Shown piece after piece: positions 34,142-47,519 of a stretch of 64,000 nt of DNA (position 1 is the first letter of the stretch; the number at the start of each line of letters is the position of its first letter). The notes under the pieces were generated by a model. The model ran no database searches, had not been told where the DNA came from, and saw only the letters and a program-made list of their open reading frames with translations. The stretch is from an uncultured Psychroserpens sp. (GTDB lineage Bacteria > Bacteroidota > Bacteroidia > Flavobacteriales > Flavobacteriaceae), in the NCBI RefSeq assembly GCF_947501425.1, contig NZ_CANMVN010000001.1, positions 372,001-436,000 of the forward strand. Reading direction: 5' to 3'. Both the position numbers and the translations under genes were made by a program.

Positions 34142-36553
34142 TTATTCAGTAGGCTTATTTGGCGCTGCTGACTCATCATTTGCATCAGTTGGTTCATCTG
34201 AATCTGGAGTCGTTGTCGTTGACTCATCACTTAAAGTCGCTGATTCTGATTTATTTTGAATAGCTGGCTCATCATTTGAATCAACAGATTCATTTACAGT
34301 TGCTGGTTCAACAGAACTGTCATGAGCACTGTGATACTCATCCAATAAACTCATTGTAGCATTCATTAGATCTTTAGTCTCCAGAAGAATACTAAAATAT
34401 AAAGTTGTATTCTTTGGGCTGGATTCTTCATTACGTGTGCGAGCTACCTGCGTTTGAATTTTTTCTTTCACTAAGTCATAAACCACTTTCTTTTCGTTTA
34501 GAATCGTCCCAATTTCTTCGAATGACTCAGATTTGAAGGCTTTTTCAGTATCGCTAAATAAAACTTCTAATTTATCATCGATTTGCTTTAACTCTTTGAT
34601 CTGACTCAGTTTTAATTTCTTGTGATTATTGTTGATGTGTTTATGACTCACTTTAGAAATATATTCTAAAGATTGAGACATATCCTGTAAATAGCCTAAT
34701 ATATTGATATAAAAGTTACTAGCACCAACACTTGACTCGTCAAGATTTTTAATGAAATAGAAAATGTTATCACGTAAAACATCAATTTCGTTAGATAGCT
34801 TCACAACTTGTTTTTTACTTTTATTTAGTATAGCTAAATCTTGTCTGGCAAGACCTACAATAGAGTTGGAGTAAATTCTATTTGTACGTTTAACAACTTT
34901 AGAAATATTTTTTGCACTTTGATGAATCACACCCTGTACAGAACTGATCTCTTCTGATGTTGTCAAACTATCTTCATCAACAACCTTATTAGATTTTTTC
35001 TTATGAGATGTGTAGTTTCTATATAATAAGATCACAGTTAATAGTAGTAAAATTGGAATAATTACACTTGGATTCCAGTTAATAAGAAAAACTACAGTAC
35101 CTGCCGCAATAAATGCTCCAATTGCAGTACCAAACCATCCACCAATCACATTTAATACACCAGCTACTCTGTAAACAGCACTTTCTCTTCCCCAAGCACG
35201 ATCGGCTAGAGAAGTACCCATAGCCACCATAAAAGTCACATAAGTAGTAGATAGTGGTAATTTCATTGATGTTGCAATAGCAATCAATACACCAGCTACC
35301 ATTAAGTTTACAGACGCTCTGATCATATCGAATGCAGGAGCCTGAATACTTTGATCTTTAGTCATAATAACATTAGGTTTCTCAAAGCTTTTACCTATAC
35401 TTTCTTGTACTGATTTTGGGATAATGATACTAAAATATTCAGATAATTGTGTTGTTCCTTTTACAACTGCTCTTGAAAGTCTATTTGGCTCAAATTTCTC
35501 GTGCGTGTCACCTTGACGAGACAAGCTAATTTCTGTTTCAGCAACTGTTTTAGCTTTCTTAGAAAACCAAAGCGTTACGACCATAATCGCACCAGCAATA
35601 AATAATAAGAAGGGTTCTGCTGGTACTTTTCTGTCAAGTACATCCATCGACATTGTGACGTCCATTCCACCAGCTACCCATGCTTCATAAGAATGATAAG
35701 CCGCCATAGGTACACCAATGAAGTTTACTAAATCATTACCAGAGAAAGCTAAAGCCAATCCAAAAGTACCAATAGCAATAACCACTAACAATACAGTTTT
35801 CTTTGTTATTTTTTCAAAAATAAAAGAGAATAAAGTCCAAAAAACAAAGCTTCCCAGTATGATGTATATTTCGTTACCTTCAAGAAGACCTTTAAGATCA
35901 CTGTAGTATGGTGTACCCTTAAGCCCTTTTAGAAATATAAAATAAGTAATAGCAGTTAATGCTACACCGCCAAATACTATTCCGAAATTTTTTATTTTAT
36001 TCTCATAATTAAAAGTGAAAATAAGTCTTGAAACCCATTGCACTAAAGCGCCTACCGTAAAAGCAATGAGTACAGATAAGAGAATACCACTGATGATTTT
36101 TGTAGCAGACTCTGTATCTATGTAGTTTGTCAAATCAGCAAACGATTGATCTTCCAAATGACTAATTTTTATCAATGCCATAACTACTGCAGCTCCCAAT
36201 AAATTGAATACAATAGAAACAGTTGTAGACGTTGGTAATCCCAGTGTGTTAAAGAAATCTAATAATAGAATATCTGTGATCATCACTGCCATAAAGATGA
36301 GCATGATTTCGCCAAACTCAAATTGCGCAGGTACAAAAATTCCTTTTCTAGCCACTTCCATCATTCCACTCGAGAATACAGCTCCAATGAAGATTCCTAA
36401 ACTAGCTACAATCATTATTGTTCTTAATGAAATTGCTTTAGAGCCAATAGCGGAGTTCAAGAAGTTGATTGCATCATTACTAACACCTACAACTATATCA
36501 GCTACAGCTAATACAGTAATGGCGATCAACATAAATAAGTAAATATTATCCAT
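34142..36553 (-). CDS. PiT-type inorganic phosphate transporter with PhoU-like domain and acidic tail
   Basis: 803 residues. The N-terminal two thirds is a PiT (PHO-4) permease: VGVSNDAINFLNSAIGSKAI near residue 22 and LGLPTSTTVSIVFNLLGAAV near 103, with the paired second half LPLSTTYVTFMVAMGTSLADRAWG near 425 and helices up to about 510. A cytosolic helical region (540-735) resembles PhoU. The last 60 residues are disordered repeats of DEP/DES units ending DESAAPNKPTE. It moves phosphate with a cation at the inner membrane. The porin gene lies 79 bases upstream, on the same strand. Confidence 0.92.
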   Translation of the reverse strand: MDNIYLFMLIAITVLAVADIVVGVSNDAINFLNSAIGSKAISLRTIMIVASLGIFIGAVFSSGMMEVARKGIFVPAQFEFGEIMLIFMAVMITDILLLDFFNTLGLPTSTTVSIVFNLLGAAVVMALIKISHLEDQSFADLTNYIDTESATKIISGILLSVLIAFTVGALVQWVSRLIFTFNYENKIKNFGIVFGGVALTAITYFIFLKGLKGTPYYSDLKGLLEGNEIYIILGSFVFWTLFSFIFEKITKKTVLLVVIAIGTFGLALAFSGNDLVNFIGVPMAAYHSYEAWVAGGMDVTMSMDVLDRKVPAEPFLLFIAGAIMVVTLWFSKKAKTVAETEISLSRQGDTHEKFEPNRLSRAVVKGTTQLSEYFSIIIPKSVQESIGKSFEKPNVIMTKDQSIQAPAFDMIRASVNLMVAGVLIAIATSMKLPLSTTYVTFMVAMGTSLADRAWGRESAVYRVAGVLNVIGGWFGTAIGAFIAAGTVVFLINWNPSVIIPILLLLTVILLYRNYTSHKKKSNKVVDEDSLTTSEEISSVQGVIHQSAKNISKVVKRTNRIYSNSIVGLARQDLAILNKSKKQVVKLSNEIDVLRDNIFYFIKNLDESSVGASNFYINILGYLQDMSQSLEYISKVSHKHINNNHKKLKLSQIKELKQIDDKLEVLFSDTEKAFKSESFEEIGTILNEKKVVYDLVKEKIQTQVARTRNEESSPKNTTLYFSILLETKDLMNATMSLLDEYHSAHDSSVEPATVNESVDSNDEPAIQNKSESATLSDESTTTTPDSDEPTDANDESAAPNKPTE

Positions 36554-36576: not shown

Positions 36577-36621
36577 CAAATATCTTTATACAATTTCGGT
36601 AGAACGTTACCTTATTGTTAT
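36577..36621 (-). promoter_or_regulatory. Possible promoter and weak Pho-like box of the PiT gene
   Basis: On the minus strand, ATAACA (36616-36621) and GTAACG (36605-36610) are 11 bp apart; the next register position (36594) is degenerate. Nine bases further is GATATTTG (36577-36584), one mismatch from TAnnTTTG. The geometry equals that at the beta-helix lipoprotein, but the sites are weak. Confidence 0.3.
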
Positions 36622-36632
36622 GTTTTTATTGC

Positions 36633-37835
36633 TTAAAAATGAAAATCAAATCCTAGTCTAAAGGTAATATTATCTTCATTTCCATCCAGAGTAGTATAAC
36701 TAATATCAGACTGCACCTTTAATTTATGACCAACAATAAATTTATTAAAACCCAACGTGTATTGGTCAGAAGGTAAAACACCTGTTACACTTTCAAAGTC
36801 TACAGTTGTAAAACGAGCTGCAATTTCATAATTGCTTTTGAATAAATAACCAGCTTGTAAATTTAAAGCATTACCTGTTAAAACAATATCTCCTGTTGGT
36901 GTAACACCATCGGCTTCTGTAGCTACAGGGTCGTCTGCTGTTCGTTTGGCATATTCTCCCATAAAAGAGAATCCGTTGTATTTAAATACAGCATCTGCAA
37001 AAATAGTAGTTTGATCTGTCTCGTAAATCGTTCCATCGGTTCTGATCATGTAATCACCAGCAAAACCTCTTTCTCTAACGGCATCTTGGTTATAGTTATA
37101 AGTAAAACCAAGCATAAGTTTTGGTGTTTCTTCACGCTTTAGATCAGAATGGCTGTAATCTCCTTTTGACTTAAAAGTGCCAAAAGGTAAAAACTCAATA
37201 CGAGCTGTATATTGAAGACCACCTTCGTTACCTTCAGTAACATTTCGACCTTCACCTTGGGATAAGGATAGTTTTTCACGCATTAAAAAATCATTACCTA
37301 ATTTGGTTTTATGACGTAGCTGAACACCGAGATCACGATCTATATTAAAACGACTGTTTAATAGTGAACGGTCTATTAATTGTAAGTTTCCTGAAGATAC
37401 CACACGCTCTACATTTCCAGGCAACTTAGTTTGTCCAGCCCAAAGCTCCCAGTTTTCTGCAAAATTCCACATCAGAACGGCATCTAATATATAACGTGGT
37501 GTGTTTCGGTTAAATTCATTGGCACCTGAGATATCTCTGTTTGATAATCCCAACTCAATTTTATATCTAAGTTTTTTGCTGTAAGCATAACCATCAAACT
37601 TCAAACGAGCACGTCTCACAATAAAATTATGTTCAGGGCTTTCATATTGATTTCCATCATAATCCCAAGATGAAATGGAACGAACCTGAAAACGTGGTGC
37701 AAATTTAATGCTGAAAGAACTGTCTTTTGCTGTGAAGTTGATTAAACCTTTTCCGAAAGATGTATCACTAATTTCTTGAGAGAATGAATACGATACAACG
37801 CACAATAGTAGCGCTAGGGTAAATTTTGATTTCAT
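36633..37835 (-). CDS. OprO/OprP-family phosphate-selective porin
   Basis: 400 residues. Signal peptide 1-19 (SYSFSQ), then FTAKDSSFSIKFAPRFQVRS and RRARLKFDGYAYSKKLRYKIEL near residue 70, the start of the phosphate-selective porin (porin_O_P) barrel. Alternating beta strands continue to the terminal FRLGFDFHF, whose last Phe is the outer-membrane insertion signal. It should let phosphate or polyphosphate enter the periplasm. Being directly upstream of the PiT gene supports a shared role. Porin_O_P proteins in Bacteroidota are not all phosphate-specific. Confidence 0.9.
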   Translation of the reverse strand: MKSKFTLALLLCVVSYSFSQEISDTSFGKGLINFTAKDSSFSIKFAPRFQVRSISSWDYDGNQYESPEHNFIVRRARLKFDGYAYSKKLRYKIELGLSNRDISGANEFNRNTPRYILDAVLMWNFAENWELWAGQTKLPGNVERVVSSGNLQLIDRSLLNSRFNIDRDLGVQLRHKTKLGNDFLMREKLSLSQGEGRNVTEGNEGGLQYTARIEFLPFGTFKSKGDYSHSDLKREETPKLMLGFTYNYNQDAVRERGFAGDYMIRTDGTIYETDQTTIFADAVFKYNGFSFMGEYAKRTADDPVATEADGVTPTGDIVLTGNALNLQAGYLFKSNYEIAARFTTVDFESVTGVLPSDQYTLGFNKFIVGHKLKVQSDISYTTLDGNEDNITFRLGFDFHF

Positions 37836-37858: not shown

Positions 37859-37903
37859 CAAATAACCAATTTTAATATTAACTGAATGTTTCCTAATGTT
37901 TAT
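37859..37903 (-). promoter_or_regulatory. Possible promoter and Pho-like box of the porin gene
   Basis: On the minus strand ATAAAC (37898-37903), GAAACA (37887-37892) and TTAATA (37876-37881) are at 11-bp steps, followed after nine bases by GTTATTTG (37859-37866), a partial TAnnTTTG match, 23 bases before the ATG. Confidence 0.35.
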
Positions 37904-37951: not shown

Positions 37952-38111
37952 TCATTAGAATTCATAATCATTTAGTCGACAAAAACTAATTCAATTATAT
38001 GAAATACTAATTGTGTTCTGAAACACACTGCAAATATGGGCATGCTAGGTAATTTAAATGTAATGTCAATATTATATAATTATTAACTTATAAATATGCT
38101 ATGTTAAGGTT
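37920..38111 (-). ncRNA. Candidate Pho-controlled small RNA, about 190 nt
   Basis: A minus-strand unit defined by its ends. Upstream is the hexamer array at 38136-38185, oriented toward it, and TATTATTG (38118-38125), one mismatch from TAnnTTTG, ten bases after the last half-site. Downstream is a good terminator at 37920-37951. The span has no frame longer than about 11 codons (MIMNSNEAAFL before the terminator). It ends just before the porin's own promoter, so it is more likely a separate RNA than a leader. Expression has not been shown. Confidence 0.4.
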
Positions 38112-38135: not shown

Positions 38136-38185
38136 TAGTTATCTAATGTTAATTTAATGTTACGTAAATGTTTGAATATTGTAAA
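38136..38185 (-). promoter_or_regulatory. Pho-box-like array, minus orientation
   Basis: On the minus strand, at exact 11-bp steps: TTTACA (38180-38185), CAAACA (38169-38174), GTAACA (38158-38163), TTAACA (38147-38152), and a weaker TAACTA (38136-38141). It overlaps the -33 element of the divergent MORN-like gene promoter. Confidence 0.5.
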
Positions 38186-38201
38186 CTTTTATTTAACTTT
38201 G
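38171..38201 (+). promoter_or_regulatory. Promoter of the MORN-like gene
   Basis: TTTG (38171-38174), a 19-base spacer and TAACTTTG (38194-38201): a perfect match to the Bacteroidota TTTG-N19-TAnnTTTG promoter. The start codon is 37 bases beyond. Confidence 0.7.
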
Positions 38202-38238: not shown

Positions 38239-38595
38239 ATGAAAAAGATATTTGCAATACTATTACTACTAAGCGTGACTTTTACTTTTGCACAGGAAAA
38301 ACCTAAAGTAGAGTTAAACAAGGATGGAGACCTTACAGTTGCCACATATTATCATGATAACGGGCAAGTAGAACAGCAAGGGACTTTTAATCAAGAAGGA
38401 CAGTTGCATGGTGTTTGGACAAGTTACGATGCCAATGGAAATAAAGTCATGGTTGGAAATTATGTAGATGGTAAGAAAACAGGAAAATGGTTATTTTGGT
38501 CTGGTAATGTGTTAAGAGAAGTAGATTATGTAGATTCAAAGATTACCAGTGTAAGCGAGTGGACTGATAAAGTACAGGTTGCCCTAAATAATTAA
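38239..38595 (+). CDS. Small exported MORN-like repeat protein
   Basis: 118 residues: signal peptide 1-19 ending TFAQ, then two to three repeats of the kind GQLHGVWTSYDANGNKVMVGNY and GKKTGKWLFWS, the YwqK/MORN variant pattern (GxxxGxWxxY). Often annotated as YwqK-type antitoxin or membrane-binding protein, names without evidence of function here. It has a perfect promoter overlapped by a Pho-like array, so it may respond to phosphate. Confidence 0.8.
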   Translation: MKKIFAILLLLSVTFTFAQEKPKVELNKDGDLTVATYYHDNGQVEQQGTFNQEGQLHGVWTSYDANGNKVMVGNYVDGKKTGKWLFWSGNVLREVDYVDSKITSVSEWTDKVQVALNN

Positions 38596-38685: not shown

Positions 38686-41514
38686 TTAAAATTTGTAAGA
38701 ATATCCTAGTGAAATTTCTGTACCAGGTTCTCTCAGAGAAAAGATTTGATCTTCTGCTCCAAATGATACATAATCACTTTGTCTAACGCTATTCAATATG
38801 TTTGATACTTTGAAATCTATTGAAGAGTTTCTATTTTCTCCAAAAGCTTTATTAAATGTAAAATTTAAACTATTGAATGGCTTAGTGTATACATCAGGCA
38901 CTAATCCAATACCTACAACTTCTAATGTCTCTCCCTGAACGTTAAAAAACAAACCAGTTTGTAATCCAAGATCATTATTACTATAATCAAAACCAACATT
39001 TATAAGATAAGGTGCTTGTCCTTGAAGATCTCTTTCTCGTTCTATACGTTCTCCATCTCTGGCTGCCAATTGTCTACTTTCAAATTCACCATCAGACATC
39101 GTTAGCTCAGATTTGATAAACGATACATTAGCGTTAAATTTCAGGTTGTTTAATCCTTCTGTGATGAATCCTAAACGTTGTCTTACTTCAAACTCAACAC
39201 CATAAACATTGGCATTACCTAAGTTAGCTACAGTTAATTGCGTAGGTGCTTGTAAAAAGAAAGACTGCTCTATCGGGTCTTTAAAATCTTTATAAAACCC
39301 ACTTACCGCAAACATTTGTCCGTTATCTCCAAAACGCTCATATCTTAAGTCAAAGTTATTGACATAAGTTGGAACCAGATTTAGATTACCAATAAATAAA
39401 CGACTGGTAATTGGATCAAAAATTTGCGCTACAGAAGCTTCTTTAAATGATGGTCTGGCAGTTGTTCTAGAATAAGACGTTCTAAGGTTTGAGTCATCAT
39501 TAATTGAATAAATCAAGTTAGCTGACGGGAAGAAGTCATATTCATCCAGAATAAGTTCTCTGTCAAATTGAGTTTCGTTATCCTGTCCAGTATAGAATGA
39601 ATTAAAAAATTCAGTTCTTATTCCTAAAACGGTTTTTAATTTCTCACTGACATTAAATTCTGCGGAAAAGTAACTAGCTGCTATAACTTGCTCTCCTTCA
39701 TAAGCATCATTTGGATTAAACTGATCTCCAAATACTAAAAACGTTCCTGAGTCAGTTGTTGGGTTCCATATGTTTTCAGGAGCTAATAATTGATCTACAT
39801 CACCATTAGCAATAAATGAGTCATCCCCTTGAATATTAAAGGTGTAATCATCTGTACTGAAATCTCTAAACTTGTAAGTATATGCAGCACCAAACTTTAA
39901 CTTTGCTGATCTCCCAAGAAAATCAACTGTTTTGTCTAAATCTACTTTTCCAGACCAACTCTCTTCAATAAGATTTCTCCATAATTGAATTGGGAAAGTA
40001 GATGCACTCGGACTTACAAAGAACTGACCTTCACCAGATTGTTGTAAAGGTGTAATTCTATGATCTTTATCCATCACCTTAGAAAATGTTGGAGCGATTT
40101 TCCATTCTAAGTTGAATGCATTTTCATCATCACTTAAACGATGCTTTCCGCTAACCAATAGATTAGTTATTGAACGCTCAGTATAAGTTAATGAATTTTT
40201 TATTAATGGCTCTAAACCTCCACCAACACCATCTTGTGATATGTCCTGATCAAAAAAACCAGCAGTGGATTCACCGTTTTGAATATGTAAAAAGTTTGCT
40301 TTATACTTTGACTTATCAGTTTTGTAAGTCAACCCTAACATACCATTTAATATAACGTTATTAATACCTTCAGAACCACGAGAATCCAATACAAAGTTTA
40401 GATTATTATTAGATGAATCTGAAAAGTCTTTTACCCATGCACCATCATTTCTATTTTCATAAAAAGTGGTTGTGTTCTTATAGGAGAATGAAGCTTGGTA
40501 TCCAATTTTGTCATCACCAATATCATACTGATTACCTAATGTAAATCCAAAATCAAAGTTCATAGCACTTTGTTCTTGTTTAGCTTGTAGCTCTTTCTGA
40601 AATCTATTAGTTAAAGATGTAAGTAGCAATTGATTATCAAAAGTACCAGGAATTTGTTGGTATCTGTTAATTGGCAAGTTTCGTGTACCATCATCAAAAC
40701 CTAAGAAATCCGTATCACTTCCAGTATAGGTTAAATACTTGTCATTAAAGTGCATATCAGGATTATACCCAGAACCTAATGAAATGGTATATTCTGCTTT
40801 TGTTGGGAAATCTTTAGTAACAATATCCACAATACCTCCAGTGAAATCTGCAGGATATTCTGCTGAAGCCGATTTTAATACAATCACATTATCTAAAATG
40901 TTTGTTGGAAATAAATCCATCTGGATAGTATTTCGATCTGGATCTAAACCAGGAATATCAATACCATTTAATATAGATTTTGTGTAGCGATCACCAAGAC
41001 CACGTACGTATACGTATTTTCCACCTTCAATAGATACGCCTGGAACACTTTTTACAGCGCTTGCAAGGTTACTGGCACCTGTACTTTTTATGGCTTGAGC
41101 TGAAAGACCGTCTAATACGACAACAGATTTCTTTTGTAAATCTAAAACAGCATTTTCAGTATTTCGTTTCACTGAAGTTGTAATAACAACAGTATCAAGT
41201 GAGTTAGTTTTTAAAGTCACATCAAGTGTTACCACTTGTCCAGCTTCTACAACAACCTCAGTAATTTCTTGAGTAGCATAACCAACGTAAGAAAACACTA
41301 AAGTATAAGTTCCTGGTTCTAATTCTAAAGTATACTTTCCGTCAAAATCAGAATTTGTACCTGTTGTTGTGCCTTTCACTAAGATATTAGCAAAAGCCAT
41401 AGGCTCTACGAACTCTCCGTCAATTACTGTACCTGAAACTGTTCCTTTCTGAGCATTAATAAAGCCAATGGCAAATACCAGCAGTATTAATAGAGAGAAT
41501 GTCTTTTTTTTCAT
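38686..41514 (-). CDS. TonB-dependent outer-membrane receptor
   Basis: 942 residues. Signal peptide 1-21, a carboxypeptidase-like regulatory domain (about 22-105, GTVSGTVIDGEFVEPMAFANILVKG), the plug (about 115-245, SVVVLDGLSAQAIKSTG and KYVYVRGLGDRYTKSILNG), then a 22-stranded barrel ending EISLGYSYKF. It is not a SusC: it lacks the extended SusC motifs and its partner is no SusD. It lies 94 bases downstream of the beta-helix lipoprotein gene on the same strand, with an internal hairpin and another in-register hexamer array. The substrate is unknown; the setting points to a phosphorus compound. Confidence 0.93.
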   Translation of the reverse strand: MKKKTFSLLILLVFAIGFINAQKGTVSGTVIDGEFVEPMAFANILVKGTTTGTNSDFDGKYTLELEPGTYTLVFSYVGYATQEITEVVVEAGQVVTLDVTLKTNSLDTVVITTSVKRNTENAVLDLQKKSVVVLDGLSAQAIKSTGASNLASAVKSVPGVSIEGGKYVYVRGLGDRYTKSILNGIDIPGLDPDRNTIQMDLFPTNILDNVIVLKSASAEYPADFTGGIVDIVTKDFPTKAEYTISLGSGYNPDMHFNDKYLTYTGSDTDFLGFDDGTRNLPINRYQQIPGTFDNQLLLTSLTNRFQKELQAKQEQSAMNFDFGFTLGNQYDIGDDKIGYQASFSYKNTTTFYENRNDGAWVKDFSDSSNNNLNFVLDSRGSEGINNVILNGMLGLTYKTDKSKYKANFLHIQNGESTAGFFDQDISQDGVGGGLEPLIKNSLTYTERSITNLLVSGKHRLSDDENAFNLEWKIAPTFSKVMDKDHRITPLQQSGEGQFFVSPSASTFPIQLWRNLIEESWSGKVDLDKTVDFLGRSAKLKFGAAYTYKFRDFSTDDYTFNIQGDDSFIANGDVDQLLAPENIWNPTTDSGTFLVFGDQFNPNDAYEGEQVIAASYFSAEFNVSEKLKTVLGIRTEFFNSFYTGQDNETQFDRELILDEYDFFPSANLIYSINDDSNLRTSYSRTTARPSFKEASVAQIFDPITSRLFIGNLNLVPTYVNNFDLRYERFGDNGQMFAVSGFYKDFKDPIEQSFFLQAPTQLTVANLGNANVYGVEFEVRQRLGFITEGLNNLKFNANVSFIKSELTMSDGEFESRQLAARDGERIERERDLQGQAPYLINVGFDYSNNDLGLQTGLFFNVQGETLEVVGIGLVPDVYTKPFNSLNFTFNKAFGENRNSSIDFKVSNILNSVRQSDYVSFGAEDQIFSLREPGTEISLGYSYKF

Positions 41515-41608: not shown

Positions 41609-42877
41609 TTAAAATCCTAATCCACCAGCTGTATTAGCAAAGGTCCATGCTAACTCTGAAGTTGTAGCTCCAACTGTATTAGCACCTTCAGCAACGGCAC
41701 TTGCAGTAGATCCAAAACCAGTAACCATTACATTTTCAGCTTTATTAACGAAAATACTTGTAACATCTGTAACACCAGTAGGTAAAACAATTTCCCAAGT
41801 CCCAAAAGTTAATAATCCGTTATTGTAGTTGGTAGCAACACCATCGTTATCTAATTCTACATCAGAAGAGTCTTTAAACCCAAAAGCATAAACATTATTT
41901 GTAGTTCCTGTTGCTCCACTTCTGTAGTCAGCGTATTCACCATTTTCAGTGGTAAGGTTACCAATAATAGTGGCATTTTGTAGTAGGAATGATCCAGTTG
42001 CAGATCCTTCAGGACCATCGATTTCGAATGCATGATCTGAGAAATCTCCTAATACAACAACAGCATTGTCAATAGTACCTGAGTAAGCTTGATCAATATC
42101 TAAAGCGTCATCTCCCTGAGCCCAAACTAATAAGTTTGAAGCGTTAACTGTTCCTCCAAAAAATTCGATACCATCATCAACATTAGCAACAACTTCTACA
42201 TTGTTGATTACTGTTCCGTTTCCAACTCCACCTAAAGTCAGACCGTTGATTTCGTTTCCTTCACCAATTAAGGCACCTCCGTGTCTTATAGATACGTATG
42301 ATATAATACCCGAATTATCAGCAGCATCTGCACCACCATATAATCCGAATGTATCATCTGCAGGAATTCCTTCAATTTGTGCTTCAGTAATGTCACCTGA
42401 AAAAGAACATGGTGCATTCCCTAAAACAATTAAACCACCCCAAAGACCTCTGTCATTTTGATCTAAATTTGTACCAGCAGTTTCACCACAAAGAATATTA
42501 TCACTTGTAGATGTAAAAATAATTGGCTCTGTCGCAGTTCCAACAGCATTAATTTTTGATCCTCTTGCAATAATTAAAGCAGAAGCTAAAGATCCTGTTC
42601 CTGGAGATCCTTTAATGATTGTTCCAGCTTCTATAGTTAAAGTCGCACCATTGTCTACAACTACTTTTTGATTGAGTTGATAGATATTATCATTTGTCCA
42701 TGTGACATCTGAAGTAATAGCTCCGGTTATAGCAACTATTGGACATTCTTCTCCACCACCACCAGGGTTCTGGATAATAGTAGTTTCTTGAATAATAATT
42801 GGAGTGTCATCGTCTTTAAAACATCCAGTAAATACAAGTGTAGAAGCGATCAATGCAGTTAGTACTAATTTTTTCAT
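41609..42877 (-). CDS. Beta-helix lipoprotein, partner of the TonB receptor
   Basis: 422 residues. The lipobox LVFTGC places the lipidated Cys at 19, followed by an acidic linker. From about 60 it is a right-handed parallel beta-helix: short repeated turns such as NQKVVVDNGATLTIEAGTII, KINAVGTATEPIIF and GNGTVINNVEVVANVDDGIEFFGG. No catalytic site is apparent. Lipoproteins of this kind commonly accompany flavobacterial TonB receptors and probably bind the ligand at the cell surface. A five-position 11-bp hexamer array and a -7 box precede it. It is the first gene of the two-gene unit. Confidence 0.82.
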   Translation of the reverse strand: MKKLVLTALIASTLVFTGCFKDDDTPIIIQETTIIQNPGGGGEECPIVAITGAITSDVTWTNDNIYQLNQKVVVDNGATLTIEAGTIIKGSPGTGSLASALIIARGSKINAVGTATEPIIFTSTSDNILCGETAGTNLDQNDRGLWGGLIVLGNAPCSFSGDITEAQIEGIPADDTFGLYGGADAADNSGIISYVSIRHGGALIGEGNEINGLTLGGVGNGTVINNVEVVANVDDGIEFFGGTVNASNLLVWAQGDDALDIDQAYSGTIDNAVVVLGDFSDHAFEIDGPEGSATGSFLLQNATIIGNLTTENGEYADYRSGATGTTNNVYAFGFKDSSDVELDNDGVATNYNNGLLTFGTWEIVLPTGVTDVTSIFVNKAENVMVTGFGSTASAVAEGANTVGATTSELAWTFANTAGGLGF

Positions 42878-42923: not shown

Positions 42924-42990
42924 CAAAGAAAGCTGCATAATGTAAAGTTTAGGTTAATACCACATTAAACCTAAATCATAAAACCGTTAA
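42924..42990 (-). promoter_or_regulatory. Pho-box-like array and promoter of the lipoprotein/TonB receptor unit
   Basis: On the minus strand, at exact 11-bp steps: TTAACG (42985-42990), ATGATT (42974-42979, weak), TTAATG (42963-42968), TTAACC (42952-42957), TTTACA (42941-42946). Nine bases later comes TTTCTTTG (42924-42931), one mismatch from TAnnTTTG. The array replaces the -33 element, as in PhoB-activated promoters. The lipoprotein ATG is 46 bases further. Confidence 0.55.
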
Positions 42991-43081
42991 GGGAGTATTA
43001 TGTGAAAAGACACTTTTTTGTGAATAGGAAACATTAAATTAACATTGAAAAAGTCTATCTTGCAGCTGTTAAAATTATGGT

Positions 43082-46613: not shown

Positions 46614-47519
46614 TCACTCTTCAATAACAAAAGTAATAGGTAAATTATAAGTGAGTGCTACGTGCTGGTCATTGTACTTTGCAGGACTAAATTGTGGTAG
46701 TAAACTAATAACTCGTTTTGCTTCTTTTTCAAACTGTTGGTGTGGTGCTCTAACTTTTATAGCACTCACCTGTCCGTTCTTGTCAATGGTGAACTGTGTA
46801 TTGATGCGTTGTCTGCCCTTTAACCCTAAATCTCCTTGAGGAACTTTAAAATTAGCGATAACGAAGTCATGTAACCTATCCGTAAAATATGTTTTGATGT
46901 CTTTTCCTGAAAGATCTTTAGGAGCGTCTATAAAATTTGGCTTTTCATCTACAGAATGCCATGACATGGGTTGATTCGGATTTACTTCTTCTACAATCAT
47001 TATACCTTCTACCATAACAATATCTCCCATGACTGGAATTGTAGGCGTTTTAGATGTTTTTACAATAAGGCTATCTGTCTTTTTGGTCGAAGTAGAATTA
47101 GCCGAAGAATCGATGGCTTGCTCAACTCTAGTTTTGGTCGAGTCTATTGCCTGTTCAATAATCTCCACACTATCTATTTTTTTAGTTTGTCCTTTCTCAT
47201 CAGAACAGCTCAATAGCGAGGTTCCCATAGCTAGTAATAAGGCGACTAAGAAGAGTTTATGAAACGGCATTCGTTGTTCAAATACTGTGTCATAAATCTT
47301 TAAATTAATAGTATCTAATTGCGATTTTTTGATGTGTCCGCAAATGCGTTGGTTCTTGTTGAAATGAATAAATTCCTGTACTTCGGAAGTTGACATTGCC
47401 GTAAAATCGACAACCGTTTTTGAGCAGGATTGACAAAATCGTCCTTTCACGTTAGGTGTCATATCAGACCAGTTCTCGTGACATGGTTTAGGAATAGAGA
47501 GTGCATAGCGTGGTTTCAT
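46614..47519 (-). CDS. Membrane protein with N-terminal cysteine motif and C-terminal TonB-like domain
   Basis: 301 residues. N-terminal cytosolic part with CHENWSDMTPNVKGRFCQSC (residues 13-32) resembling a small zinc-binding motif, then VVDFTAMS and a further Cys. A single helix near 87 (KLFLVALLLAMGTSLLSC) leads to a charged, Ser/Thr/Lys-rich linker and, from about 205, a TonB C-terminal domain (INTQFTIDKNGQVSAIKV and LPQFSPAKYNDQHVALTYNLPITFVI). Its role could be energy transduction or membrane signalling; only the C-terminal fold is firm. Confidence 0.75.
   Translation of the reverse strand: MKPRYALSIPKPCHENWSDMTPNVKGRFCQSCSKTVVDFTAMSTSEVQEFIHFNKNQRICGHIKKSQLDTINLKIYDTVFEQRMPFHKLFLVALLLAMGTSLLSCSDEKGQTKKIDSVEIIEQAIDSTKTRVEQAIDSSANSTSTKKTDSLIVKTSKTPTIPVMGDIVMVEGIMIVEEVNPNQPMSWHSVDEKPNFIDAPKDLSGKDIKTYFTDRLHDFVIANFKVPQGDLGLKGRQRINTQFTIDKNGQVSAIKVRAPHQQFEKEAKRVISLLPQFSPAKYNDQHVALTYNLPITFVIEE

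Follow-up and report, generated by a model that had tools for sequence, protein, structure and literature searches.

The window, i.e., the whole 64-kb stretch of DNA analysed here, carries on its minus strand a lipoprotein gene followed downstream by a gene for a TonB-dependent receptor, and the lipoprotein gene is preceded by a series of short direct repeats:

42941 to 42990, minus strand: five-unit array with an 11-bp period, proposed PhoB box (from sequence, orthologue alignment, period and phase)
42931 to 42924, minus strand: -7 box TTTCTTTG of the lipoprotein promoter (from sequence and aligned promoters)
42996 to 43001, minus strand: sixth unit ATAATA, upstream of the array and in register with it (from sequence and orthologues)
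41609 to 42877, minus strand: lipoprotein of 422 aa, beta-rich predicted model, no Pfam match
38686 to 41514, minus strand: TonB-dependent receptor of 942 aa, with CarbopepD_reg_2, Plug and barrel

On the minus strand the array reads TTAACG (42990-42985), ATGATT (42979-42974), TTAATG (42968-42963), TTAACC (42957-42952) and TTTACA (42946-42941), the unit starts being exactly 11 bp apart, and nine bases separate TTTACA from TTTCTTTG. The hexamers, the spacing and the gap described in the sequence-only reading are therefore all exact, and the array contains the at least two direct repeats at an 11-bp period that are expected of a Pho box. TTTACA is the least conserved unit in the aligned promoters (53-77% per column), and in the alignment of orthologous promoters it is not recognisable in those labelled Winogradskyella. 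The position of the sixth unit is kept in the orthologues, at 84-95% in four core columns.

Other genes of the window also have arrays before them:

38239 to 38595, plus strand: MORN-repeat protein gene
38194 to 38201, plus strand: candidate -7 box TAACTTTG of the MORN gene
38142 to 38185, minus strand: array of four units, the strongest in the window at 23-24 bits, before the MORN gene and reversed (matrix and profile R1)
38043 to 38086, minus strand: array between the MORN and porin genes, 19.4 bits, then CATATTTG
37871 to 37903, minus strand: three-unit array directly before the porin gene, 12.2 bits, then GTTATTTG
36633 to 37835, minus strand: porin of the Porin_O_P family
36600 to 36643, minus strand: weaker array before the PHO4 gene, 13.1 bits, then GATATTTG
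34142 to 36553, minus strand: phosphate transporter of the PHO4 family, 803 aa
29813 to 29856, plus strand: array reaching the start codon of the Na+/Pi cotransporter gene, 21.7 bits
29856 to 31613, plus strand: Na+/Pi cotransporter

The array of the MORN gene carries TGTTA on the coding strand, the reverse of most promoters here. Among 66 MORN loci, the offset of the TAnnTTTG-type box is 19 in 36 loci, 8 in 10, 18 in 7 and 30 in 2; the MORN genes of two relatives have a promoter of the same kind as that at 38142-38201. At the Na+/Pi cotransporter gene, three units were equalled in 3 of 1000 shuffles. This array leaves no space for a -7 box ahead of the start codon and might mark repression or a misplaced start codon. 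On the plus strand, two ACATT units 11 bp apart (43028-43049) precede the dGTPase gene; they were equalled in 81 of 1000 shuffles, which is not significant alone, and an exact 11-bp ACATT repeat is present in 20 of 72 loci. A gene for a TonB C-terminal protein (46614-47519, minus strand) also lies near the receptor/lipoprotein unit.

Strength and conservation of the array

Array strength was scored with a matrix from which the window and 15 near relatives had been left out, so that 63 of the 79 rows were used. The five units reach 18.9 bits. When the intergenic region was shuffled, 1 of 2000 sequences did as well, and when the whole window was shuffled, 1 of 60; four units reach 13.5 bits and are equalled in 12 of 2000 and 22 of 60, respectively. 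Within the window alone, the array is modestly above chance, which is suggestive rather than decisive. Since it is locally convincing but unremarkable against 64 kb, the case for it rests on conservation. These figures leave slight room for a different explanation, namely that the repeats form a constitutive A+T-rich upstream promoter element whose periodicity is incidental: all units are A+T-rich, and four of them do not exceed chance when the whole window is shuffled.

The own genome (3.7 Mb) was scanned at E<=10 with a profile of the array, R1, built in part from orthologous lipoprotein promoters. The three best matches all fall in this gene cluster (E 5e-5, 2e-4 and 0.28). The array at 42941-42990 is absent from the 50 matches at this threshold, so the copy before the lipoprotein gene is a weak match to the profile. 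Retrieval of 30 of the 50 matches showed several to be intragenic or to precede unrelated genes. A simpler search of the own genome, with four TTAAC units and three mismatches, was too crude, yielding five matches of which one lies at the Na+/Pi cotransporter gene and the rest are mixed. Contig C10 holds a further 28-bp match to the region, which overlaps an ORF start and was taken as chance.

Genome contigs searched with the lipoprotein gene yielded 193 related loci, and the analysis went on with the 80 best. Their titles are mostly Flavobacteriaceae or Flavobacteriales, and the closest, labelled Psychroserpens, is 89% identical. The promoters were aligned by anchoring on the -7 box; 79 could be used, i.e., that of the window and those of 78 of the 80 loci, as L064 and L075 lack the start. 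In this alignment identity averages 90% over the 20 core columns (from 43% to 99%, with -46 the only one below 60%), compared with 57% over the 36 spacer columns, 13 of which exceed 60%, notably TTT at -52 to -50. The conserved cores are TAAC at -69, -58 and -25, T-n-A-C at -47 and TAAT at -36. TTTG of the -7 box is present in 79 of 79 promoters, but the same box is the anchor of the alignment. The sequence-only reading had made its proposal depend on conservation of the array in orthologous upstream regions, and such conservation is what the core and spacer values display, in promoters that are related by descent and whose counts are not independent.

Scores above 17 bits were reached by 188 arrays across the 80 loci (982,637 bp): 72 stand before the lipoprotein gene, 95 between the MORN gene and the next gene (porin or PHO4) and 21 elsewhere. 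None of the 188 is labelled as lying inside a window-matched gene, both promoter labels having been assigned first, which argues against a merely A+T-rich element. Most of those found elsewhere (17 of 21) precede a gene for a small secreted protein between dgt and the lipoprotein gene. This gene lies near position 5200 in L028, L034, L045 and others, where it has its own array, and in L034, the one example tested, its product has CarboxypepD_reg domains. Gene order is widely shared, with the receptor found in 79 of the 80 loci, dgt in 73, MORN in 69, PHO4 in 64 and the porin in 35, these counts being limited by contig ends and by the 6-kb flank. A relative of the lipoprotein is encoded by 106 of 196 sampled genomes of the order.

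Arrays at pstS and other genes

The array was also sought at other genes with a matrix trained on lipoprotein promoters only, at a threshold of 14 bits and a shuffle p<=0.05. For pstS, 20 genes whose products exceed the PstS family cut-off in the order were taken, one of which (L209) was dropped for its short upstream region. The pstS check called for by the sequence-only reading was passed: 15 of the 19 promoters score above 14 bits and 17 of 19 reach p<=0.05, compared with 19 of 171 other genes of the fetched loci above 14 bits (Fisher 7e-10). As 46 of these 171 genes also reach p<=0.05, the shuffle test is lenient. The array-bearing pstS genes are spread over several families of the order.

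The 19 high-scoring comparison genes are themselves informative. Phosphate genes and relatives of the receptor/lipoprotein pair account for twelve of them. The pair is represented by three receptors and two lipoproteins; the others are two Porin_O_P porins, the PhoB of L141, PstC-type proteins of L222 and L223, a porin-like protein of L218 below the cut-off, and the PstS of L209 that had been dropped, the assignments in L223 and L209 being made by sequence or position only. Two encode OmpR-type regulators whose identity as PhoB is not clear (L140 and L150). The remaining five (L130, L207, L216, L219 and L221) belong to loci fetched for PstS or the lipoprotein, and L130, L207, L216 and L221 have no Pfam match.

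The companion check on phoX turned out otherwise. Arrays had been expected at PhoX-family promoters, but 0 of 30 exceed 14 bits and 9 of 30 reach p<=0.05, so that sharing with the classical phosphate genes, a mark of a Pho box, is seen at pstS and fails at the PhoX family; some of the upstream regions of the latter may be based on wrong start codons. In a phylum-wide sample of PstS genes, 4 of 29 exceed 14 bits (L236, L250, L253 and L262, with GC of 0.40-0.43) and 6 of 29 reach p<=0.05. Of the 25 misses, 21 come from loci with a GC content of at least 0.50, where the A+T-rich matrix is by itself sufficient to account for low scores.

In two relatives of the same family (G148 and G124), R1 gave 51 matches, of which 30 were retrieved and 18 inspected, with 2 of the 18 flagged inside genes. 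The best match in each of them stands before a MORN_2 protein, and further ones precede a receptor gene beside phoB, a DUF47-PHO4 pair and a GH1 glucosidase gene. At the GH1 glucosidase genes of two relatives (L268 and L275; GH1 by Pfam for L268), a TTAAT-type array is followed by AATTTG.

Period and phase bear directly on what kind of element the array is. At a period of 11 the pstS promoters reach 14.1 bits on average for their best four-unit core score; periods 7-10 and 12-16 give 1.7-5.1, and the opposite strand gives 7.5 bits at period 11. The spacing between the last unit and the -7 box equals 3 modulo 11 in 11 of 15 pstS, 76 of 77 lipoprotein, 31 of 32 porin, 40 of 45 PHO4 and 12 of 16 small secreted protein promoters, the denominators being the scorable promoters among 19, 78, 35, 64 and 21, respectively. 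The pstS count weighs most in this comparison because related promoters are not independent. Both the lipoprotein and the pstS promoters thus display the fixed position relative to the promoter core that is typical of a Pho box. With period 11 as the only one to score in an independent promoter set, and with the phase mostly fixed, a constitutive A+T-rich element appears highly improbable.

The PhoBR system and the receptor/lipoprotein pair

The own genome encodes four Trans_reg_C proteins, i.e., PhoB and three others, and the PhoB/PhoR pair that a Pho box requires is present on contig C10, where the regulator and its histidine kinase stand alongside a GT28 gene. Own PhoB is 68-80% identical to the PhoB proteins encoded beside lipoprotein/receptor homologues in L159, L163, L166, L168 and L169. 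Conceivably, the array could serve another OmpR-family regulator that uses 11-bp direct repeats and answers a different signal, the phosphate genes sharing the box by co-regulation. Tandem repeats are used by many OmpR-type regulators, the genome has several candidates, and arrays above 14 bits stand before the regulator genes L140:2692-3354 and L150:2628-3302, near lipoprotein homologues, the L140 product being only 33% identical to own PhoB. However, the pstS genes of several families in the order are preceded by the same box, as are the PhoB gene of L141, whose product is 70% identical to own PhoB, and the receptor gene beside phoB in the two relatives. Control by such a different regulator is therefore considered unlikely.

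Conservation, the pstS promoters, the period of 11 and the phase lead to the view that the array is most likely a flavobacterial Pho box, and very probably a putative docking site for PhoB in flavobacteria. On these comparisons of sequence we regard it as highly probable that PhoB, via PhoR, would turn on the lipoprotein/receptor genes and nearby genes at low phosphate. The earlier proposal of a PhoB/PhoP-type box over the -33 region gains strong support from the orthologues, pstS, period, phase and the PhoBR pair, and the same comparisons strongly favour the phosphate-starvation control that it had put forward. According to this model, when phosphate is short PhoR would phosphorylate PhoB, whose molecules, arranged head to tail, would occupy the 11-bp TTAAC-type units across the -33 region and, in fixed phase to the -7 box, would recruit RNA polymerase. 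The lipoprotein gene and the downstream receptor gene, presumably transcribed jointly, would be switched on, as would the nearby porin, PHO4 and MORN genes, and receptor and lipoprotein may capture phosphate or organic phosphorus at the outer membrane.

How PhoR would perceive phosphate is a separate matter. In the own genome, no match to PhoU (TIGR02135) and no PstS above the family cut-off were found, and in a regulon without detectable PhoU or PstS, PhoR would have to sense phosphate by another path. It is possible, although rather doubtful, that a PhoBR regulon of this kind exists here and perhaps in many relatives, in which TTAAC arrays in either orientation drive a receptor/lipoprotein-porin-PHO4 route and PhoR senses phosphate otherwise, possibly via the receptor unit. 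The apparent absence of both PhoU and PstS makes phosphate sensing by PhoR a testable question. Between own phoB and the gene for a lamin-tail-domain protein lies an array of three units (17.6 bits) that points at the lamin-tail gene; three units were equalled in 1 of 1000 shuffles and four in 20 of 1000.

The predicted model of the lipoprotein (pLDDT 89.6) has many strands. Its matches among solved structures, which are distant (best E 4.6e-4; TM below 0.5 among the 50 matches listed), are mostly beta-helix proteins with pectin-lyase-like and tailspike folds, and this supports a predicted beta-helix protein. A phmmer search of the lipoprotein against solved structures gave chance-level matches only. 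A SusCD/PusCD label was rejected, as the lipoprotein lacks a Pfam match and TIGR04056 scored 54.5 bits against a cut-off of 368. Both members of the pair are present in 79 of the 80 loci.

Import of a phosphorus compound by the pair would fit its surroundings. Alternatively, the pair may be under phosphate control and yet anchor or display a surface activity, such as a phosphatase helper, a role suggested for ElpS, or take up a glycan, a reading that we rate as a substantial possibility, if somewhat short of even. The resemblance of the predicted lipoprotein model to pectin-lyase-like and tailspike beta-helices is consistent with it, glycan binding or hydrolysis has been proposed by the F. johnsoniae authors (PMC8115612), and ElpS of Caulobacter crescentus, a phosphate-starvation surface lipoprotein, has been linked to alkaline phosphatase activity (PMC2996285). 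Against such a role speaks the synteny with a phosphate-type porin (35 of 80 loci) and with PHO4 (64 of 80), some of the loci being cut short.

Comparison with known systems

Among known Pho boxes, the PhoP sites of B. subtilis are TTAACA-like, and the PhoB box of E. coli has an orientation opposite to the repeat direction in most promoters here. The array differs from the E. coli box in its core, TTAAC instead of CTGTCAT; the E. coli box consists of tandem 11-nucleotide direct repeats (PMC4415409) and lies about 10 bp upstream of the -10 (PMC1906773). The cyanobacterial Pho box, which SphR/PhoB binds ahead of pst and phosphatase genes, has been described as CTTAACCT in at least three direct repeats built on a TTAA(C) core, each 8-bp unit being followed by a 3-bp linker to give an 11-bp period (PMC1906773), and changing any TTAA core lowers or abolishes PhoB binding (PMC11126600). 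Direct repeats, core and period are shared with the array, and on sequence grounds the flavobacterial array is most likely close to this box. Unlike the cyanobacterial box, it has up to six units, is phased to the Bacteroidota -7 box TAnnTTTG and stands here before outer-membrane receptor/lipoprotein genes. PhoB/SphR binds near-identical repeats in cyanobacteria, the Flavobacterium counterparts of the pair are induced at low phosphate, and PhoB would presumably bind the array here. In B. fragilis, PhoB binds a 512-bp pstC promoter fragment, for which the account consulted gives no box sequence (PMC3547664), and putative Pho boxes are marked in plcP clusters of marine bacteria, likewise without their sequence in that account (PMC4796936). 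Within the open-access literature, to which the search was confined, no Pho box sequence from flavobacteria came to light. A defined box would make the phosphate regulon readable from the genomes and metagenomes of abundant marine bacteria.

As for the pair itself, the sequence-only reading had taken it for a possible new uptake system, but its kind has already been described as PUSIV/FII of Flavobacterium johnsoniae, in which a TonB receptor and a pectin-lyase-fold lipoprotein lie beside phoBR and both genes are strongly induced at low phosphate, with transcript changes of 8.02 and 9.91, respectively, that are log2FC in the text of the report and only FC in the table heading (PMC8115612). In the same report, OprP of this cluster is not induced (FC -1.3), while PhoX is strongly induced at 12.5 (PMC8115612). 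As in Fjoh_0545/0546, to which it is likened by published description, the pair here joins a TonB receptor to an adjoining lipoprotein without a Pfam family and with a pectin-lyase fold, in our case by predicted model. Unlike Fjoh_0545/0546, it adjoins porin and PHO4 genes and lies on contig C1, phoBR being on the separate contig C10; phoBR is found with a GT28 gene in F. johnsoniae as well (Fjoh_0541, 0543 and 0544; PMC8115612). Homologues of the pair do lie beside phoBR in L159, L163, L166 and L168, and beside PhoB in L169, their lipoproteins being 31-49% identical to that of the window. In L159 the order of lipoprotein, receptor, PhoB, PhoR and porin repeats that of Fjoh_0546-0542 (PMC8115612), with a porin match in L159 that is truncated where the stretch ends and falls slightly short of the cut-off. 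The FI-FIII lipoproteins are related to Caulobacter ElpS (31-36% identity; PMC8115612), which the lipoprotein of the window resembles, by published description, in being a surface lipoprotein.
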